From positions 81,456-145,455 of the forward strand of contig CAIRGJ010000013.1 in NCBI GenBank assembly GCA_903878085.1: a DNA stretch of 64,000 nt. The letters are read 5' to 3'. This document shows, one piece after another, positions 9,661-59,743 of this stretch. Position 1 is the first letter of the stretch; each line of letters begins with the position of its first letter. Source of the stretch: an uncultured Hyphomicrobiales bacterium (GTDB lineage Bacteria > Pseudomonadota > Alphaproteobacteria > Rhizobiales > Xanthobacteraceae). Under the pieces are notes generated by a model. The model saw only the letters and a program-made list of their open reading frames with translations, had not been told where the DNA came from and searched no databases. The position numbers were made by a program, and so were the translations under genes.

Positions 9661-12600
9661 CTAGAAAGGAAGACGGGCCTGAACTTGTCCTGACCAAACG
9701 AGGAAGTTTGCGCCGAGGCCGCCAATTTCCGTCATAAAGCCGAGTGAAGCTCCGTTCTGTGACATATACGTTACGCCCGACGTCACGCGTGCCGACCAGC
9801 CGCTGGAAATGCCGACCACTGGCTGCCCGGCAGGCACGGAATTGTCCGATTGAAAATAATAGTCGCCGTAAAGGCCAACGAACGGACTCAACTTCCCATC
9901 CATGAAATCGAACACACGTCCGATCTTGCTGCCGCCACTGGCGCGGCCCGCCGAGAAGTTGCGAGCCTCCTGAAGGGTAGCGAGACTATCGGTCCACTCA
10001 TTCTGATGTTCCCACAGCGCGAAGACCTTCAGCGATGGTTCGAGCAGATAGGGTCCGAGTTTTTCATTGCCGGTGACGCCAGTCGAGAACAGCCAGCGGC
10101 TGCCCACGAGCGAACCGTTAGCCGTACCGGCCGTCACATCATAGGACATCGCAGACCACGCAATCGTCGCATCGAAGCGGATGCGATCGAAGCGTCGCGA
10201 GAAATAGCCGCCGACGGCTTCCCCGCGGCCTTTCAGGCCGCCGCCCAGGGAGGCGATGTCGTATTTAAACATTTCGTGGCCAAGGATAACGCCAACAAGC
10301 ATGTCGCTGTTGAGTTTGCGGCTCAGGCCACCGGTAATATTGAGCTGGCTGCCGGTGAGATCGTTGCCGCCAGGCGTGCTGCTGGGAGCCGTGTCGCGAA
10401 CCTTCCAGCCGGTACCGCGAATGTCGAGCCAGAGATTCCAGTCACGCTGCGCCGGCATCACAGGCTTTGTCTTTGGACGAGACGCCATGGCGAGAGCCTG
10501 GAATGCGTCATCGAAGCGGCTATTACGGGCGGACCGTTCCTCGCGAGTCTCGGCGGCAAAATTGATGCGCGCGCCGTTCGCACCGATATTGATCTGGCTG
10601 CTGCCGCCATCAGCGAAAGCGTCGGCAATCGCGGTGTCCACCGCAGAGCTGATCAGTTGGCCGGAGCTGTTTGCCACCATTTTCGTGATGGTCTTCTGCA
10701 CCATTTGCGCTTTTTGACTGTCAGCCGGCATGCCATATGCGAAGCGGTCGGCCGAACTCGTGCTGCTGGTGCCTCCTGCCGTGGTGACGGTGATATCGAC
10801 CGTGCCCGTGCCTGCCGGAGATGTGACGACTATCTGGGTGGACGTATTCGACGCGATCGTTGCTGCAGTGGCGCCGAATTTGACGGCTGTCGCGCCACTC
10901 AGATTGGTGCCCGTAACCGTCACGCTGGTGCCACCCGCGGAAGGGCCCGTCGATGGCAATACCGCGGTTACCGTCGGGCTTGGTGTTGCATAAGTAAAAA
11001 GATCGGCGGCGCTCGTCGTGCTCGTTCCGCCTACCGTGGTTACTGTGATATCGACCGCCCCGGTTCCCGCAGGAGAGACGGCCACAATTTGCGTTGCCGT
11101 GTTCGAACTGATGGTGGCGGCGGTCGCACCAAACTTCACCAATGTCGCGCTGGTGAGATTCGTACCTGTGATGGTGACACTGGTGCCGCCGGCCGGGATG
11201 CCGTTGCTTGGCGTAACCGCCGTAACCGTGGGAGAGGTGGCGCTATACGTATAGCCGTTGGTGAGCGTGGCGCTACCGACGCCGTTGTTGACGACGACGT
11301 CTTTGACAAGGCTGCCAGAGACGTATGCAGGCGTCGTTGCGGTCAGTGTCGTACTGTTGGTCACAGAGACGCCGGTAGCTGAGACACCACCGATGGTTAC
11401 CGTGGTGCCAGGCGCGTAATTCGTACCGGCGATGGTAACGCTCGTTCCGCCCGCAGTGCTTCCGGTGTTGGGCGTGATGCTGCTGATCGTCGGCGCGCCG
11501 ACGGTGTAGGTGAAGCCACCAGAGAGCGTCGCAGTACCGGAACCGTTATTAACGACAACGTCCTTGGCAAGACTGCCCGAGACATAGGCCGGCGTGTTCG
11601 CCGTGAGCGTCGTGCTGTTGGTAACTGACACCCCGGTTGCCGCGACTCCGCCGATGGTGACCGTCGTACCTGGCGCGAAATTGCTTCCGCTGACGGTTAC
11701 CGACGTGCCGCCCGCTGCGGTGCCGGTGTTTGGCGTGATGCTGCCGACGGTTGGCGCAGACGCCGAATAGGTAAAGCCGTTGGTCAGAGTGGCGCTACTG
11801 ACGCCGTTGTTGACGACAACGTCCTTGGTCAGGCTGCCGGAGACGTACGCAGGCGTCGTTGCGGTGAGCGTCGTGCTGTTGGTCACCGAGACGCCGGTGG
11901 CTGCGACGCCACCGATAGTCACCGTGGTCCCCGGCACAAACTGTGTGCCGGTGATGGTGACACCCGTCCCGCCTGCCGTGCTGCCGGTGCTGGGGGTGAT
12001 GTTGCTGATGGTCGGGGCAGAGGCCGTATAGGTGAAGCCGTTTGTCAGCGTCGCGGTGCTTGTGCCGTTATTGACAACGACGTCCTTGGCAAGAGCGCCG
12101 GAAGCATAGGCCGGGGTGTTGCCCGTCAACGTCGTGGCGTTCGTGACCGAAATGCTGGTCGCCGAGACGCCACCGATGGTCACGGTAGTGCCGGGCACGA
12201 AGCCGGTGCCGGTGAGGGTGAACCCTGTGCCGCCCGCTGTGGTGCCCGAGGTCGGGTTAATGCTGCTCACCGTTGGCGCCGCCGCGGTGTAGGTGAATCC
12301 GTTTGAAAGTGTGGCGCTCCCGGAGCCATTGTTGACGACGACATCCTTGGCGAGGCTGCCCGAGGCGTAAGCCGGGGTATTGGCGGTGAGAGTTGTGCTG
12401 TTCGTGACCGACACACCGGTCGCCGACACGCCGCCAATCGTCACAGTGGTGCCCGATACGAAATTGGTGCCCGTAATGGTGACGCTCGTGCCGCCTGCCG
12501 TGCTGCCGGTGCTGGGGGTGACGTTCGAGATCGTCGGCGCCGCCGCCGTATACGTGAATTGATCGGCGGAACTGGTCGTGCTGGTACCGTTGCTATTAGT

Positions 12601-12969
12601 AACGGTCACATCAACAATACCGGCAGCGCCGGCGGGCGACGTGGCGGTGATCTGGGTGTCGCTGTTGATCGTGAAAGTGGCCGACGTCGCTCCGAAATTA
12701 ACGGTCGTCGCACTTGAGAAACTGACGCCGGTAATGACCACCGAAGTACCGCCTGCCACCGGACCGGATGAAGTCCCTAGCGACGTGACACTCGGAGCAA
12801 TGGGCGTACAGGTCGCAGAGGCGACAACGGTGCCGTTGTCGGCGGTGCTGGTGCGTCCGGAAAAAATGTAGACCTTTGTTACGCCTGACGGCAGCGTCTG
12901 CGAGTAACTGCCCGACGTCGGATTTTGATTGCTCGGATTGTAGCTGATACCCGGGTGATTATACCGCAA
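9661..12969 (-). CDS. TIG-repeat autotransporter, main fragment (frame broken from its N-terminus)
   Basis: The 1102-residue fragment carries eight IPT/TIG immunoglobulin-like repeats of about 85 residues each (repeat opening APTISNVTPSTGSTAGGTSV, closing GFTYTA). A linker follows, then a C-terminal autotransporter beta-barrel of about 270 residues that ends in the terminal phenylalanine expected of an outer-membrane protein (QARLPF). The family is surface-exposed or secreted by the type V route. The fragment opens at a TTG with no ribosome site. Its natural N-terminus with the signal peptide lies in another frame just upstream (12975-13259), so one indel near 12975-12985 separates them. Central repeats 2-6 are nearly identical to each other. 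Confidence 0.8.
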   Translation of the reverse strand: MRYNHPGISYNPSNQNPTSGSYSQTLPSGVTKVYIFSGRTSTADNGTVVASATCTPIAPSVTSLGTSSGPVAGGTSVVITGVSFSSATTVNFGATSATFTINSDTQITATSPAGAAGIVDVTVTNSNGTSTTSSADQFTYTAAAPTISNVTPSTGSTAGGTSVTITGTNFVSGTTVTIGGVSATGVSVTNSTTLTANTPAYASGSLAKDVVVNNGSGSATLSNGFTYTAAAPTVSSINPTSGTTAGGTGFTLTGTGFVPGTTVTIGGVSATSISVTNATTLTGNTPAYASGALAKDVVVNNGTSTATLTNGFTYTASAPTISNITPSTGSTAGGTGVTITGTQFVPGTTVTIGGVAATGVSVTNSTTLTATTPAYVSGSLTKDVVVNNGVSSATLTNGFTYSASAPTVGSITPNTGTAAGGTSVTVSGSNFAPGTTVTIGGVAATGVSVTNSTTLTANTPAYVSGSLAKDVVVNNGSGTATLSGGFTYTVGAPTISSITPNTGSTAGGTSVTIAGTNYAPGTTVTIGGVSATGVSVTNSTTLTATTPAYVSGSLVKDVVVNNGVGSATLTNGYTYSATSPTVTAVTPSNGIPAGGTSVTITGTNLTSATLVKFGATAATISSNTATQIVAVSPAGTGAVDITVTTVGGTSTTSAADLFTYATPSPTVTAVLPSTGPSAGGTSVTVTGTNLSGATAVKFGATAATIASNTSTQIVVTSPAGTGTVDITVTTAGGTSSTSSADRFAYGMPADSQKAQMVQKTITKMVANSSGQLISSAVDTAIADAFADGGSSQINIGANGARINFAAETREERSARNSRFDDAFQALAMASRPKTKPVMPAQRDWNLWLDIRGTGWKVRDTAPSSTPGGNDLTGSQLNITGGLSRKLNSDMLVGVILGHEMFKYDIASLGGGLKGRGEAVGGYFSRRFDRIRFDATIAWSAMSYDVTAGTANGSLVGSRWLFSTGVTGNEKLGPYLLEPSLKVFALWEHQNEWTDSLATLQEARNFSAGRASGGSKIGRVFDFMDGKLSPFVGLYGDYYFQSDNSVPAGQPVVGISSGWSARVTSGVTYMSQNGASLGFMTEIGGLGANFLVWSGQVQARLPF
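10733..12798 (-). repeat. Eight tandem TIG-domain coding repeats
   Basis: Eight head-to-tail units of about 255 bp each encode one IPT/TIG domain. Units 2 to 6 share near-identical stretches such as VSVTNSTTLTA and KDVVVNNG. Units 1, 7 and 8 belong to a second sub-type (FGATSATF or FGATAATI, then VDVTV or VDITV). The pattern suggests recent unequal recombination or gene conversion in the central array. These are protein repeats, not a CRISPR. Confidence 0.9.
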
Positions 12970-13471: not shown

Positions 13472-14251
13472 CTACCCGCTCAACATCTCCAGCGCTGCCT
13501 GATGCACGCGCTTGTCGCCGGCGGCGACGATGCGGCCGCCGTTCTGCGCCGGGCCGTCCTCCCAGGTGGTGACGATGCCGCCGGCGCCGACAATGATCGG
13601 GATCAGCGGCACGATGTCGTGCGGCTTGATCTCGGTCTCGATCACCAGATCGATGTGGCCCGCCGCCAGCATGGCGTAGGCGTAACAGTCGCCGCCGTAG
13701 CGCGAGAGTTTGGCGACTTTTTCCACCTTGCCGAATTGCGCGCGGTCGGCTTCGTTCATCAGCAGCGGGCTGGTGGTGAATAGCACGGCGTCGTTGAGCG
13801 CCGCACAGGCGCGCACGTGCAAGTCGCGATCGCCGCCCGGTCCCTGGTAACGCGCCGCGCCGCCGTCGCCGGTAAAGCGCTCGCGCGTGAACGGCTGATG
13901 CATCATGCCGAACACCGGCTCGCCGAAACGCATCAGGCCGATCAGCGTGCCCCAGGCCACCATGCCCGAGATGAAGGACTTGGTGCCGTCGATCGGGTCG
14001 AGCACCCAGACATATTCGGCATCGGTGCGTTCGGCGCCGCGTTCCTCGCCCAGGATGCCGTGCGCCGGGAAGTTCTTGCGGATCAGCGCGCGCATGGCGT
14101 CTTCGGCGGCGCGGTCGGCCACGGTAACCGGGTCGAAGCCGCGGGACAGCTTGTTCTCGATCGCCAGCGTGGTCCGGAAGAACGGCAGGATGGTCTCGCC
14201 CGAGACGCTGGCGAGTTGATCGACAAAGCTGGAAAAATCGATGGCCGTCAT
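13472..14251 (-). CDS. hisN: Inositol-monophosphatase-like histidinol-phosphatase
   Basis: A 259-residue member of the inositol monophosphatase superfamily, of the HisN type that dephosphorylates histidinol phosphate in histidine synthesis; a SuhB-like role is the alternative. Metal-binding motifs are intact: GEERG (Glu 69-70), the signature WVLDPIDGTKSF (Asp 85 and 88) and GGDCYAY near the C-terminus. The ATG at 14251 (MTAIDFSSFV) gives the usual family length; a longer frame to 14302 has nothing to support it. Next to it, divergently, lies the MmgR-like sRNA, a family once named after a suhB neighbour. Confidence 0.85.
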   Translation of the reverse strand: MTAIDFSSFVDQLASVSGETILPFFRTTLAIENKLSRGFDPVTVADRAAEDAMRALIRKNFPAHGILGEERGAERTDAEYVWVLDPIDGTKSFISGMVAWGTLIGLMRFGEPVFGMMHQPFTRERFTGDGGAARYQGPGGDRDLHVRACAALNDAVLFTTSPLLMNEADRAQFGKVEKVAKLSRYGGDCYAYAMLAAGHIDLVIETEIKPHDIVPLIPIIVGAGGIVTTWEDGPAQNGGRIVAAGDKRVHQAALEMLSG

Positions 14252-14502
14252 GGCGTTTGCCTGCCCCGGCACCGGCCTATCGGAGAGTGGCGGCGTCGGC
14301 AACTGCCGCGATTCGGAGCGGCGTTATGCCATTTAACTGCTGTAGAATAGACGTTTTTGTACTGGTATGCGAGCTTATTGCTCATATTGTTTCGCATAGC
14401 CCAACAGAAAACCTCGATTCCAGGATTTAGCTATGCAAAAAAATGGGTCGAAAAGGGCCCGGGAACCTTGATTTTTGTGCAGCGCGGTGTAGGTTATTGC
14501 AA

Positions 14503-14582
14503 TGCGGTAGCGATACCGTTGCCCTCCTTGGGCGTTTCCTCCCTAGACTTGGGCCGCTCTTCAATGAGCGGCCCTTTTTTTT
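14503..14582 (+). ncRNA. mmgR: MmgR-like (suhB / alpha-r8 family) small regulatory RNA
   Basis: An RNA of about 80 nt is predicted from three features in the right order. A short hairpin GCCC-TCCTT-GGGC (14521-14533) is followed by the decamer TTTCCTCCCT (14535-14544) in a single-stranded stretch, then a strong terminator (14551-14582). That decamer is the ultraconserved CU-rich motif of the rhizobial MmgR sRNA, which controls polyhydroxybutyrate accumulation in Sinorhizobium. The 5' end is estimated from a weak promoter (TTGATT at 14468-14473 and a -10 near 14490). No open reading frame explains the sequence. Confidence 0.8.
14551..14582 (+). terminator. Rho-independent terminator of the MmgR-like sRNA
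   Basis: A 9-bp perfect stem GGGCCGCTC / GAGCGGCCC with the loop TTCAAT is followed by eight T residues. It is one of the clearest terminators in the window and reads on the plus strand. Confidence 0.92.
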
Positions 14583-14607
14583 GGTCGGGTGGCGACCGCA
14601 GTCCAGG

Positions 14608-15495
14608 TTATTCGGCCGCGGCGCGATAGGGACGCAGCTCTTCCAGTGGAATCTCGCCGAGCCGCCGCGCCAGCGTCTCCAGATCGGCCGCCAGCCGATC
14701 GAAATGCCCGGTCCGCTCGTAGCGGCGCTCGTCCATGTAGAGCGCGCGGTTGATCTCGAGCTGGATGGCGTGCAGGCCCGCGGAGGGGTTGCCGTAGTGC
14801 TCGGTGATAAAGCCGCCGGCATAGGGCTTATTGCGGCTGACGGTGTAGCCCAGGGTCCGTAGCGTCGATTCCACGGTCTCCGCCACCACGCCGACACAAC
14901 TGGTGCCGTAGCGGTCGCCGAGCACGAATTCGGGACGTGGTCGTTCGTCCTTTTGCCCCGTGCTTGACGGCATCGAGTGACAGTCGACGAGCATTGCGGC
15001 GCCAAAATCACGGTGCATTTTGCCGAAAAGCCGCCGCAGCGCACGGTGGTAGGGCTTGTACAGGGTCTCGATCCGCTGGAGCGCGTCGTCGACCGGAATA
15101 CGCTGATCGTAGATCTCCATGGCGTCGCCCACCACCCGCGCCACGGTTCCCAGACCGCCGGCGACCCGCATCGAACGGGTATTGGCAAACGAGGGCAGGC
15201 GGCCGTCGAACATGCGTGGATCGAGTTCATAGGGTTCGCGGTTGACGTCCACGAAGCAGCGCGGGAAATGCGCCCGCATCAGCGGATAGCCATGCCCGAC
15301 CACGCCGGCGACCAGGGCGTCGACAAAGCTGTCTTCCGAGCGGCGCAGCGTCCCCACATCCAGCCGCGACAGCTCCAGGAAGGTGCGGGGGTAGGTCGAC
15401 CCGCTATGCGGGGAATTGAACAAAACCGGCGCGGCATAGGCCGCCGGCTCGATGATCTCGAAGGCTGGGTCGAGTTCGTGGCTAGCGTCAGTCAT
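14608..15495 (-). CDS. N-formylglutamate amidohydrolase family protein
   Basis: A 295-residue protein of the N-formylglutamate amidohydrolase (FGase / HutG-like) family, zinc-dependent enzymes that release formate from N-formylglutamate. Family hallmarks are seen: NSPHSGSTYP near residue 28, the RSEDSFVDALVAG segment, FVDVNREPYELDPRMFDG near residue 81, and LVDCHSMPS with the metal ligands in the middle. No histidine-use genes are adjacent, so it may serve another N-acyl amino acid. It is divergent from cpdR, an arrangement I believe is common in Rhizobiales. Confidence 0.9.
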   Translation of the reverse strand: MTDASHELDPAFEIIEPAAYAAPVLFNSPHSGSTYPRTFLELSRLDVGTLRRSEDSFVDALVAGVVGHGYPLMRAHFPRCFVDVNREPYELDPRMFDGRLPSFANTRSMRVAGGLGTVARVVGDAMEIYDQRIPVDDALQRIETLYKPYHRALRRLFGKMHRDFGAAMLVDCHSMPSSTGQKDERPRPEFVLGDRYGTSCVGVVAETVESTLRTLGYTVSRNKPYAGGFITEHYGNPSAGLHAIQLEINRALYMDERRYERTGHFDRLAADLETLARRLGEIPLEELRPYRAAAE

Positions 15496-57386: not shown

Positions 57387-58391
57387 ATGCGCCTGTTCGC
57401 GAAGGCCCCCGGCATGAGCCGGCCCCTCATTGTTGCCTTGGCGATGACGCTGGCGGTCACCTTCTCCGGTCCGTGCCGCGCCGATAGCGCCGAATATCCG
57501 ACCCGGCCGATCACGCTGATCGTGCCCTATCCACCCGGTGGCGGCGTCGACGCCATGGCGCGGGTGGTCGGACAGAAGCTGTCGGAGACGCTGCACCAGC
57601 CGGTCATCGTCGACAATCGCGGCGGTGCCGGCGGCACGCTCGGCACCCGCGCGGTGGCGCGCGCGCATCCCGACGGCTACACGCTGCTGCTCGGCCATAC
57701 CGGCACACTGTCGATCAACCCCAGCCTGTACAGCCATGCCGGCTACGATCCGCGCGCCGACTTCGACGCCATCGGTCTGGTCGCCTCGATGCCGGTGGCG
57801 CTGATCGCGCATCCGTCGTTTCCGGCGAAATCGATCGCCGAGTTCATCGCGCTGGCCAAGGCGTCGCCGGGCAAGATCAACCTCGGCACCTCGCCGCTCG
57901 GCACCGGCGGCTACATGTGCGCCGAGCTGTTCAAGTCGGTGGCCGGCCTCGACCTCGCCATCATTCCCTACAAGGGTTCGGCGCCGGTGATGAGCGATCT
58001 GCTCGGCGGCCATGTGCCGGTAGCGTTCGGTACACTGCCGCCGGCGCTCGGCAATATCGCTGCCGGCAATCTGCGCGCCATCGCGGTCACCAGCGCCAAG
58101 CGCACCAGCCTGCTGCCCGACGTGCCGACCTTCGACGAATCCGGGCTGCCCGGCTTCGAGGCGGTGTTGCATTACGGCCTGCTGGCGCCGGCCGGCACGC
58201 CGAAGGAGATCATCGATCAGCTCAATTTCGAGATCCGGCGCGCGGTCGCGACCGACGAGGTCAAGGAGCGCATCCGCGCCGAGGGCGGCGACCCGATGAC
58301 CTCGACGCCGGCGGAATACACCGCCGATATCGACAAAGAAGAAAAGAAATGGGGCGATCTGGTGCGCCAGCTCAATTTAAAGGTCGAATAG
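57387..58391 (+). CDS. Bug-family periplasmic tricarboxylate receptor (first copy)
   Basis: A 334-residue substrate-binding protein of the tripartite tricarboxylate transporter (TctC/Bug) family. The signal peptide (PLIVALAMTLAVTFSGPCRA) is followed by YPTRPITLIVPYPPGGGVDA, the ligand-binding VDNRGGAGGTLGTRAVARAH and IPYKGSAPVMSDLLGGHVP, and FDESGLPGFEAVLHYGLLAP. ATG 57387 has GGGGAG six bases or so upstream. No TctA/TctB membrane genes are nearby, so it is an orphan receptor, which is common in this family. The ligand is unknown. Confidence 0.92.
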   Translation: MRLFAKAPGMSRPLIVALAMTLAVTFSGPCRADSAEYPTRPITLIVPYPPGGGVDAMARVVGQKLSETLHQPVIVDNRGGAGGTLGTRAVARAHPDGYTLLLGHTGTLSINPSLYSHAGYDPRADFDAIGLVASMPVALIAHPSFPAKSIAEFIALAKASPGKINLGTSPLGTGGYMCAELFKSVAGLDLAIIPYKGSAPVMSDLLGGHVPVAFGTLPPALGNIAAGNLRAIAVTSAKRTSLLPDVPTFDESGLPGFEAVLHYGLLAPAGTPKEIIDQLNFEIRRAVATDEVKERIRAEGGDPMTSTPAEYTADIDKEEKKWGDLVRQLNLKVE

Positions 58392-58771: not shown

Positions 58772-59743
58772 GTGCGCATTTCGCAAAGCATTGTCGCTGC
58801 ACTCGTATTGACCGTGGCGTTTATTGGCGCGGCGCGCGCCGACGACTACCCCAGCCGCCCGATCACGCTGGTGGTGCCGTTCCCGCCCGGCGGCAGCACC
58901 ACCGTAATGGCGCGCAACGTCGCCGATAAAATGTCGGCCGCGCTCGGCCAGCCGATCGTGGTGGAAAACCGCGGTGGCGCCGGCGGCACCATCGGCACGC
59001 GCTACGTCGCCAAGTCGGCGCCCGACGGCTACACCATCCTGCTCAGCTATACCGGCACGTTCTCGATCGCGCCCACCGCCTATGGCAATCCAGGCTACGA
59101 CCCGCGCAAGGATTTCGCGCCCATCGGCATGATCGGCGCCGCACCCAATCTGTTGCTGGTGACGACGTCGCTGCCCGTCAAATCGCTCGCCGAACTCATA
59201 AAGTATGCAAAGTCCTTGCCGTCGCCGATGCAATATGGCTCGCCCGGCGTCGGCACCGTCAATCATCTCGCCGGCGAGATGCTGGCGAACTCGATCGGCG
59301 TGCCGATGTTGCACATTCCCTATAAAGGCAACGGCCCCGCGCTCGGCGATCTGATCGGCGGTCACATCCCGATGATGTTCATGCCGATCCCGGCCTCGCT
59401 CGGCAATGTCAAAGCCGGCACGCTGCGGGCACTGGCGATCTCGAGCGCGACGCGCTCGAGCCTGGTGCCCGACGTGCCGACGCTGGTGGAATCCGGCGTG
59501 CCCGGTTTCGACGTGGCGTTGCGCTACGGTCTGGCGGCGCCGGCCGGCACGCCGCGTCCGATCATCGATCGGCTCAACAAAGAACTCAACGCTGCGCTGG
59601 CATCCGAGGAAGTGCAGAAGCGCTTGGCCAACGAAGGCGCCGAGGCGCTGCCCGGCACTGTCGCGGATTACGTCGCCGATCTCGACAAAGAAGAGACCAA
59701 GTGGAGCGCGCTGGTCCGCAAGATCGGGCTCAAGCTCGAGTAG
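58772..59743 (+). CDS. Bug-family periplasmic tricarboxylate receptor (second copy)
   Basis: A 323-residue receptor of the same family as the protein at 57387 (DDYPSRPITLVVPFPPGGST, VENRGGAGGTIGTRYVAKSA, IPYKGNGPALGDLIGGHIP). It starts at GTG 58772 with GGGGAGG six bases upstream, and has a signal peptide (SIVAALVLTVAFIGAARA). It probably arose by tandem duplication with the small gene at 58481 between the copies. The ligand is unknown. Confidence 0.92.
   Translation: MRISQSIVAALVLTVAFIGAARADDYPSRPITLVVPFPPGGSTTVMARNVADKMSAALGQPIVVENRGGAGGTIGTRYVAKSAPDGYTILLSYTGTFSIAPTAYGNPGYDPRKDFAPIGMIGAAPNLLLVTTSLPVKSLAELIKYAKSLPSPMQYGSPGVGTVNHLAGEMLANSIGVPMLHIPYKGNGPALGDLIGGHIPMMFMPIPASLGNVKAGTLRALAISSATRSSLVPDVPTLVESGVPGFDVALRYGLAAPAGTPRPIIDRLNKELNAALASEEVQKRLANEGAEALPGTVADYVADLDKEETKWSALVRKIGLKLE

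Follow-up and report, generated by a model that had tools for sequence, protein, structure and literature searches.

A predicted MmgR (aR8) small RNA gene between hisN and an FGase gene in a Pseudolabrys-like bacterium, with solute-binding proteins as candidate targets

The window, a stretch of 64,000 nucleotides from an uncultured Hyphomicrobiales bacterium, carries a predicted mmgR small RNA gene in the intergenic space between two protein-coding genes that both lie on the opposite strand (Table 1). hisN starts 251 nt upstream, head to head with mmgR, and its assignment bears out the SuhB/HisN-type phosphatase that the first-pass annotation had proposed as a neighbour. The FGase gene, absent from that annotation, is the nearer of the two; it stands tail to tail with mmgR, its stop 25 nt beyond the T run, and is followed by cpdR (NF046022) and then by a tRNA gene. 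Elsewhere in the window, a 1102-aa frame at 9661-12969 (-) contains many near-repeats and has a C-terminal part that by eye resembles surface or autotransporter proteins.

Table 1. Features of the predicted mmgR locus and its neighbours (positions in the window).
Feature	Position	Strand	Basis
hisN, histidinol-phosphatase, divergent neighbour	13472..14251	-	TIGR02067, 312 bits (cut-off 275.15)
-35-like CTTGAT (14467-14472), weak -10-like TAGGTT (14490-14495)	14467..14495	+	By eye, aligned with relatives
PhaR/AniA-type box 1, TGCAGCGCG	14478..14486	+	Motif core YGCRNYGCR
PhaR/AniA-type box 2, TGCAATGCG, 20 bp downstream of box 1; overlaps predicted start	14498..14506	+	Motif core
Predicted mmgR (aR8) small RNA, 80 nt	14503..14582	+	Rfam match; promoter-like elements and SL1 set the start, T run the end
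SL1, CGGTA-GCGA-TACCG	14505..14518	+	Read from sequence; register kept over 63 distinct segments
Rfam RF00519 match, beginning within SL1	14514..14589	+	Covariance-model score
SL2, GCCC-TCCTT-GGGC	14521..14533	+	Rfam match and fold; GCCCTCCTTGGGCG in 117/123 units
Unpaired seed TTTCCTCCCT	14535..14544	+	Rfam match and fold
Intrinsic terminator, 9-bp stem and eight T	14551..14582	+	Terminator caller
FGase gene, convergent conserved neighbour	14608..15495	-	PF05013, 244.6 bits

The full-length match to Rfam RF00519 (suhB/mmgR) scores 83.8 bits (cut-off 41, E 6.2e-16), a wide margin that upholds the earlier assignment to the MmgR (suhB/alpha-r8) family; the hairpin, the anti-Shine-Dalgarno-like decamer and the strong terminator on which that assignment had leaned are all present. 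In a whole-genome Rfam scan of the 4.41-Mb genome this is the single place above the RF00519 cut-off. A second copy was considered and rejected, the next matches scoring just 28.7 and 27.8 bits. The 28.7-bit runner-up overlaps BjrC1505 (RF02356, 124.2 bits; L002:1509-1649, minus strand), which also has a CCTCCCT stretch, and another weak place adjoins BjrC174 (RF02355, 62.3 bits; L006:1565-1738, minus strand). Matches above the cut-off occur in 48 of 60 genomes, this one included, and in 235 of 297 across the order. The 80-nt segment is securely placed as a genuine, ordinary member of the known aR8/MmgR family, as judged from its sequence; its host is probably a Pseudolabrys-like bacterium.

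In the predicted fold the decamer, UUUCCUCCCU in its RNA form, is free between the two hairpins and the terminator. The 14510-14583 strand has a folding energy of -29.8 kcal/mol (z -4.86), which none of 200 dinucleotide shuffles equalled. Conservation is strongest around the seed: counted over 123 units from relatives, identical ones not merged, the 16-nt core TTTCCTCCCTAGACTT is exact in 121, and GCCCTCCTTGGGCG precedes it in 117. The outer six pairs of SL1 are standard in 90.5% of cells over the 63 distinct segments, a count that leaves out nine units lacking box 2; when the register is slid the figure falls to 29-62%, and in 500 permutations it reaches at most 89.2%, a small margin that arises because there is little variation on the 5' side, where SL1 overlaps box 2.

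Upstream of the RNA, the start at 14503 given by the first-pass annotation agrees with a by-eye guess from the CTTGAT and TAGGTT elements; a sigma-70 consensus scan found no promoter for mmgR. All 30 loci among the mmgR matches listed (this one, 28 from the genus and one from another family) have the two PhaR-type boxes, at a spacing of 20 or 21 bp. Among 81 distinct promoters at FGase loci, 72 have two boxes at 20-21 bp and one has them at 19 bp, while three have one box and five none; such a pair arises in fewer than 0.0002 of composition-shuffled segments. A further 18 units (eight extra copies and ten from other families; L158, L163 and L168 yielded no unit) divide evenly, nine with a box in the same region and nine without. 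Of 27 phasin promoter loci in the genus (five further loci lacking a usable ATG were left out), 24 share the box core, frequently as two boxes about 30 bp apart; it was not found in the phasin promoter L128 of this genome. The genome encodes a PhaR-type domain, three phasins and hfq (112 bits). In S. meliloti, PhaR is reported to bind the mmgR promoter in gel shift at CAATTGTGCACCGCAGCATTA, a site rated efficient, with the motif core YGCRNYGCR (PMC12542648), and the consensus given for B. diazoefficiens PhaR is TGCRNYGCASMA (PMC6201568). A term search of the available text of PMC6201568 and PMC10888616 found no mention of an sRNA.

Relatives keep this gene order. In the best 80 of 580 confirmed relatives from the FGase scan, whose closest records are Pseudolabrys, Xanthobacteraceae and Hyphomicrobiales assemblies, the 16-nt core (at most two mismatches) lies past FGase on the opposite strand in all 80 fetched loci, with an exact copy in 79; the nearest copy is 51-630 nt past the end of the FGase match. 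cpdR is present in all 80 and hisN in 79, the exception (L100) having just 206 bases there. Among the 48 genomes with an RF00519 match above the cut-off, 45 have a convergent FGase-linked copy (32 of 33 within the genus, 13 of 15 outside it); the link was not found in G042, G057 and G015, and no FGase-mmgR linkage in any other orientation was found in these 48. The 30 mmgR-match loci and the 80 FGase loci share some genomes and are all related, so that their counts are not independent. The linkage itself is already known: aR8 is reported to adjoin FGase in most species (PMC12559287), and sm8 of S. meliloti is described as opposite to both neighbours (PMC2573895). Four loci (L064, L066, L077 and L165) have two or three tandem mmgR cores downstream of FGase.

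Extra copies appear in a different setting. The core TTTCCTCCCAAGACTT lies 22-41 nt past the stop of a same-strand gene in six relatives (G027, G004, G030, G010, G029 and G032), and that gene reads as glutamine synthetase II. Five of the six glnII-linked copies score above the Rfam cut-off and the sixth, L164, below it at 39.7 bits; G031 has a 43-bit match beside a homologous gene, and no glnII-linked copy above the cut-off was found in the present genome. In Pseudolabrys-group loci L157, L159, L160, L161, L162 and L164 (and L163), aR8-like elements sit right after a glutamine synthetase II-like gene and could possibly be 3'-UTR-derived RNAs tied to nitrogen assimilation.

Among the closest known systems is MmgR (sm8, SmelC689; RF00519) of Sinorhizobium meliloti, which shares the family, the decamer, the terminator and a length of about 80 nt (reported as 80 nt in PMC2873474; predicted here), likewise lies opposite both flanking genes and has a PhaR-type promoter box. 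Transcripts in the family measure about 77-80 nt, and the function of MmgR in S. meliloti involves NtrC activation, Hfq dependence, a lowering of phasins and a limit on granules. One PhaR site is given for S. meliloti mmgR (PMC12542648), whereas two boxes, identified by motif, stand 20 bp apart here. SisA-D (aR8) of Caulobacter crescentus have the identical 10-mer behind a weak hairpin; the sisA gene too is downstream of FGase, and the 10-mer of SisA is reported to repress mRNAs (PMC12559287). Caulobacter, which also has a CrfA sponge, has four aR8 copies, in contrast to the one above the cut-off here. AbcR1/2 (ar15) of S. meliloti offer a functional analogy, with anti-Shine-Dalgarno motifs and, reportedly, transporter genes in their regulon (PMC7143759), but they belong to another family, are 114-120 nt long and occur as tandem copies near lsrB.

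Candidate targets were sought at ribosome-binding sites. The pattern GGGAGGAA-N3-12-ATG has 26 sites in the genome against none for its reverse. Removal of L131, presumably RNase P RNA, and L148, a 3-aa frame, leaves 24 gene candidates. Ten of these are solute-binding proteins over Pfam cut-offs, and L154 has just a sub-cut-off SsuA-type match; in two samples drawn from this genome, solute-binding genes number 19 of 344 and 19 of 299, here labelled by homology rather than by Pfam as in the octamer list. The control octamers GAGAGGAA (9 sites) and GGAAGGAA (12 sites) yield 13 products 60 aa or longer, of which none is solute-binding by Pfam and two lack a Pfam match; being weaker Shine-Dalgarno sequences, they are a poor control. 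AAGGAGGT precedes ATG at five sites, as does its reversed control, the products being read by eye.

Predicted pairing with the seed separates solute-binding genes from others in both samples. In sample 1 the median is -12.5 kcal/mol for 17 solute-binding genes against -7.8 for 253 others (AUC 0.794, p 2.5e-5), and in sample 2 it is -13.5 for 17 against -6.7 for 225 (AUC 0.857, p 4.8e-7; 0.837 without two octamer-list genes). When only genes bearing a Shine-Dalgarno sequence are compared, the difference persists (p 0.00077 in sample 1; 2.5e-5 in sample 2, or 0.00026 without the two octamer-list genes). The 16S anti-Shine-Dalgarno alone reaches AUC 0.727 in sample 1 and 0.794-0.813 in sample 2, and a control stretch from the terminator loop reaches 0.684 and 0.727-0.748, so that part of the signal reflects composition or Shine-Dalgarno strength; BjrC1505 gives 0.702 and 0.71. 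Under the stricter gene caller used for these figures the MmgR seed outperforms the others compared, by a modest margin. An earlier, laxer caller, whose GC rule can pass antisense frames, gave 0.834 and 0.927; in two of the analyses made with it the solute-binding L241 and L242 were counted among the others, and in sample 2 it overlooked the two octamer-list genes, L129 and L154. With that caller the seed of the glnII-linked copies equals MmgR's own (AUC 0.853), and replication failed in G011 (two solute-binding genes with ATG, AUC 0.442, leaning against) and G229 (one such gene, AUC 0.833) because they offer too few solute-binding genes. Taken as sequence evidence, the pairing is a correlation within one genome. 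In the window, two genes at 57387-58388 and 58772-59740 (+), whose starts read GGGGAGAA and GGGGAGGC, resemble, by phmmer, a TctC-type solute-binding protein that this genome encodes; neither product has an NCBIfam match.

These observations fit an explanation that is considered probable as a whole, from promoter to targets. The mmgR gene of this Pseudolabrys-group bacterium would be expressed as a trans-acting, Hfq-dependent type of RNA, 80 nt long, whose unpaired UUUCCUCCCU would pair with GGGAGGAAA-like ribosome-binding sites and block translation. PhaR (AniA) would repress the promoter by binding one or both boxes, and polyhydroxybutyrate granules would draw PhaR away, raising MmgR. Periplasmic solute-binding proteins appear to be better target candidates than phasins: with the laxer caller, the three phasin start regions rank by seed pairing within the top 9.3, 8.5 and 15.9% among 258 genes, a mediocre result on which phasins were rejected as clear MmgR targets.

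Other readings of the same locus differ in what they leave to the RNA. That the segment is no RNA gene, just an intergenic hairpin resembling a terminator, is hardly credible: a shuffled stretch does yield a mean of 0.7 terminator-like sites, but the full-length Rfam match, the fold z-score, the near-invariant core and the conserved promoter boxes all speak against it, as does a terminator that points away from hisN on the strand opposite FGase. Mainly cis action would make more of the neighbour. On the FGase strand of 80 loci, the terminator caller detects no intrinsic terminator ahead of mmgR or within it, and in a single locus it detects one in the 300 nt beyond mmgR, although it recovers mmgR's own terminator in all 80; FGase readthrough towards hisN would consequently be fully antisense to MmgR, and the two transcripts might remove or control each other. 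The convergent arrangement in the 80 fetched loci and in 45 of 48 genomes, along with the position of S. meliloti sm8 opposite both neighbours (PMC2573895), suits such a scheme. It is nevertheless improbable, given that Rho-dependent ends are invisible to the caller and an FGase transcript end set by Rho is equally possible, that the gap from FGase stop to mmgR is variable (median 81.5 nt, up to 558, over the 80 loci), that three genomes with a match lack a detected FGase link, and that relatives are reported to have a demonstrated trans-acting role (PMC12559287).

A closer contender keeps the same RNA in a storage-centred role, as in S. meliloti, acting on phasins and granules, with the solute-binding correlation a side effect of the strong Shine-Dalgarno sequences that highly expressed uptake genes carry. 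A storage-polymer role for this mmgR would rest on the S. meliloti papers together with the presence here of phaR, of phasin genes and of PhaR-type boxes. S. meliloti mutants are reported to overproduce PhaP1 and PhaP2 with mRNA unchanged (PMC8401924), phasin promoters share the box core, and the anti-Shine-Dalgarno and terminator-loop controls separate solute-binding genes too. Set against this are the mediocre phasin pairing, a seed pairing of solute-binding genes that exceeds their anti-Shine-Dalgarno pairing (p 0.00069 in sample 1; 0.0007 in sample 2, or 0.0052 without the two octamer-list genes), and the scarcity of shuffled seeds that do as well as MmgR's (one and three of 200 in the sample 1 runs, none of 200 in both sample 2 runs); the storage-centred role is accordingly rated a serious possibility, though somewhat doubtful. 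The trans-acting, PhaR-repressed MmgR directed at solute-binding proteins can be extended, speculatively and with rather low expectation, to a storage-to-uptake feedback: granules would pull PhaR off two operators, MmgR would rise, and its GGGAGGAAA-seeking seed would halt translation of many solute-binding proteins of the periplasm (TctC, DctP, NMT1 and Peripla_BP types), FGase readthrough RNA serving as a possible antisense sink. Among the literature matches listed, no title joins MmgR to solute-binding proteins or sets FGase readthrough against MmgR, which is weak evidence with subscription journals mostly outside the search.

For the biology of these bacteria, the promoter suggests that the predicted mmgR is under the control of a carbon-store sensor, and the paired PhaR-type boxes would connect this RNA with carbon storage among Pseudolabrys- and Bradyrhizobium-type bacteria. 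Should the antisense reading prove correct, the conservation of the FGase-mmgR order would have an explanation. The seed-pairing result points to a concrete gene class: the predicted MmgR may turn down nutrient-uptake genes and, if the storage-to-uptake feedback is real, uptake would slow when stores are full.
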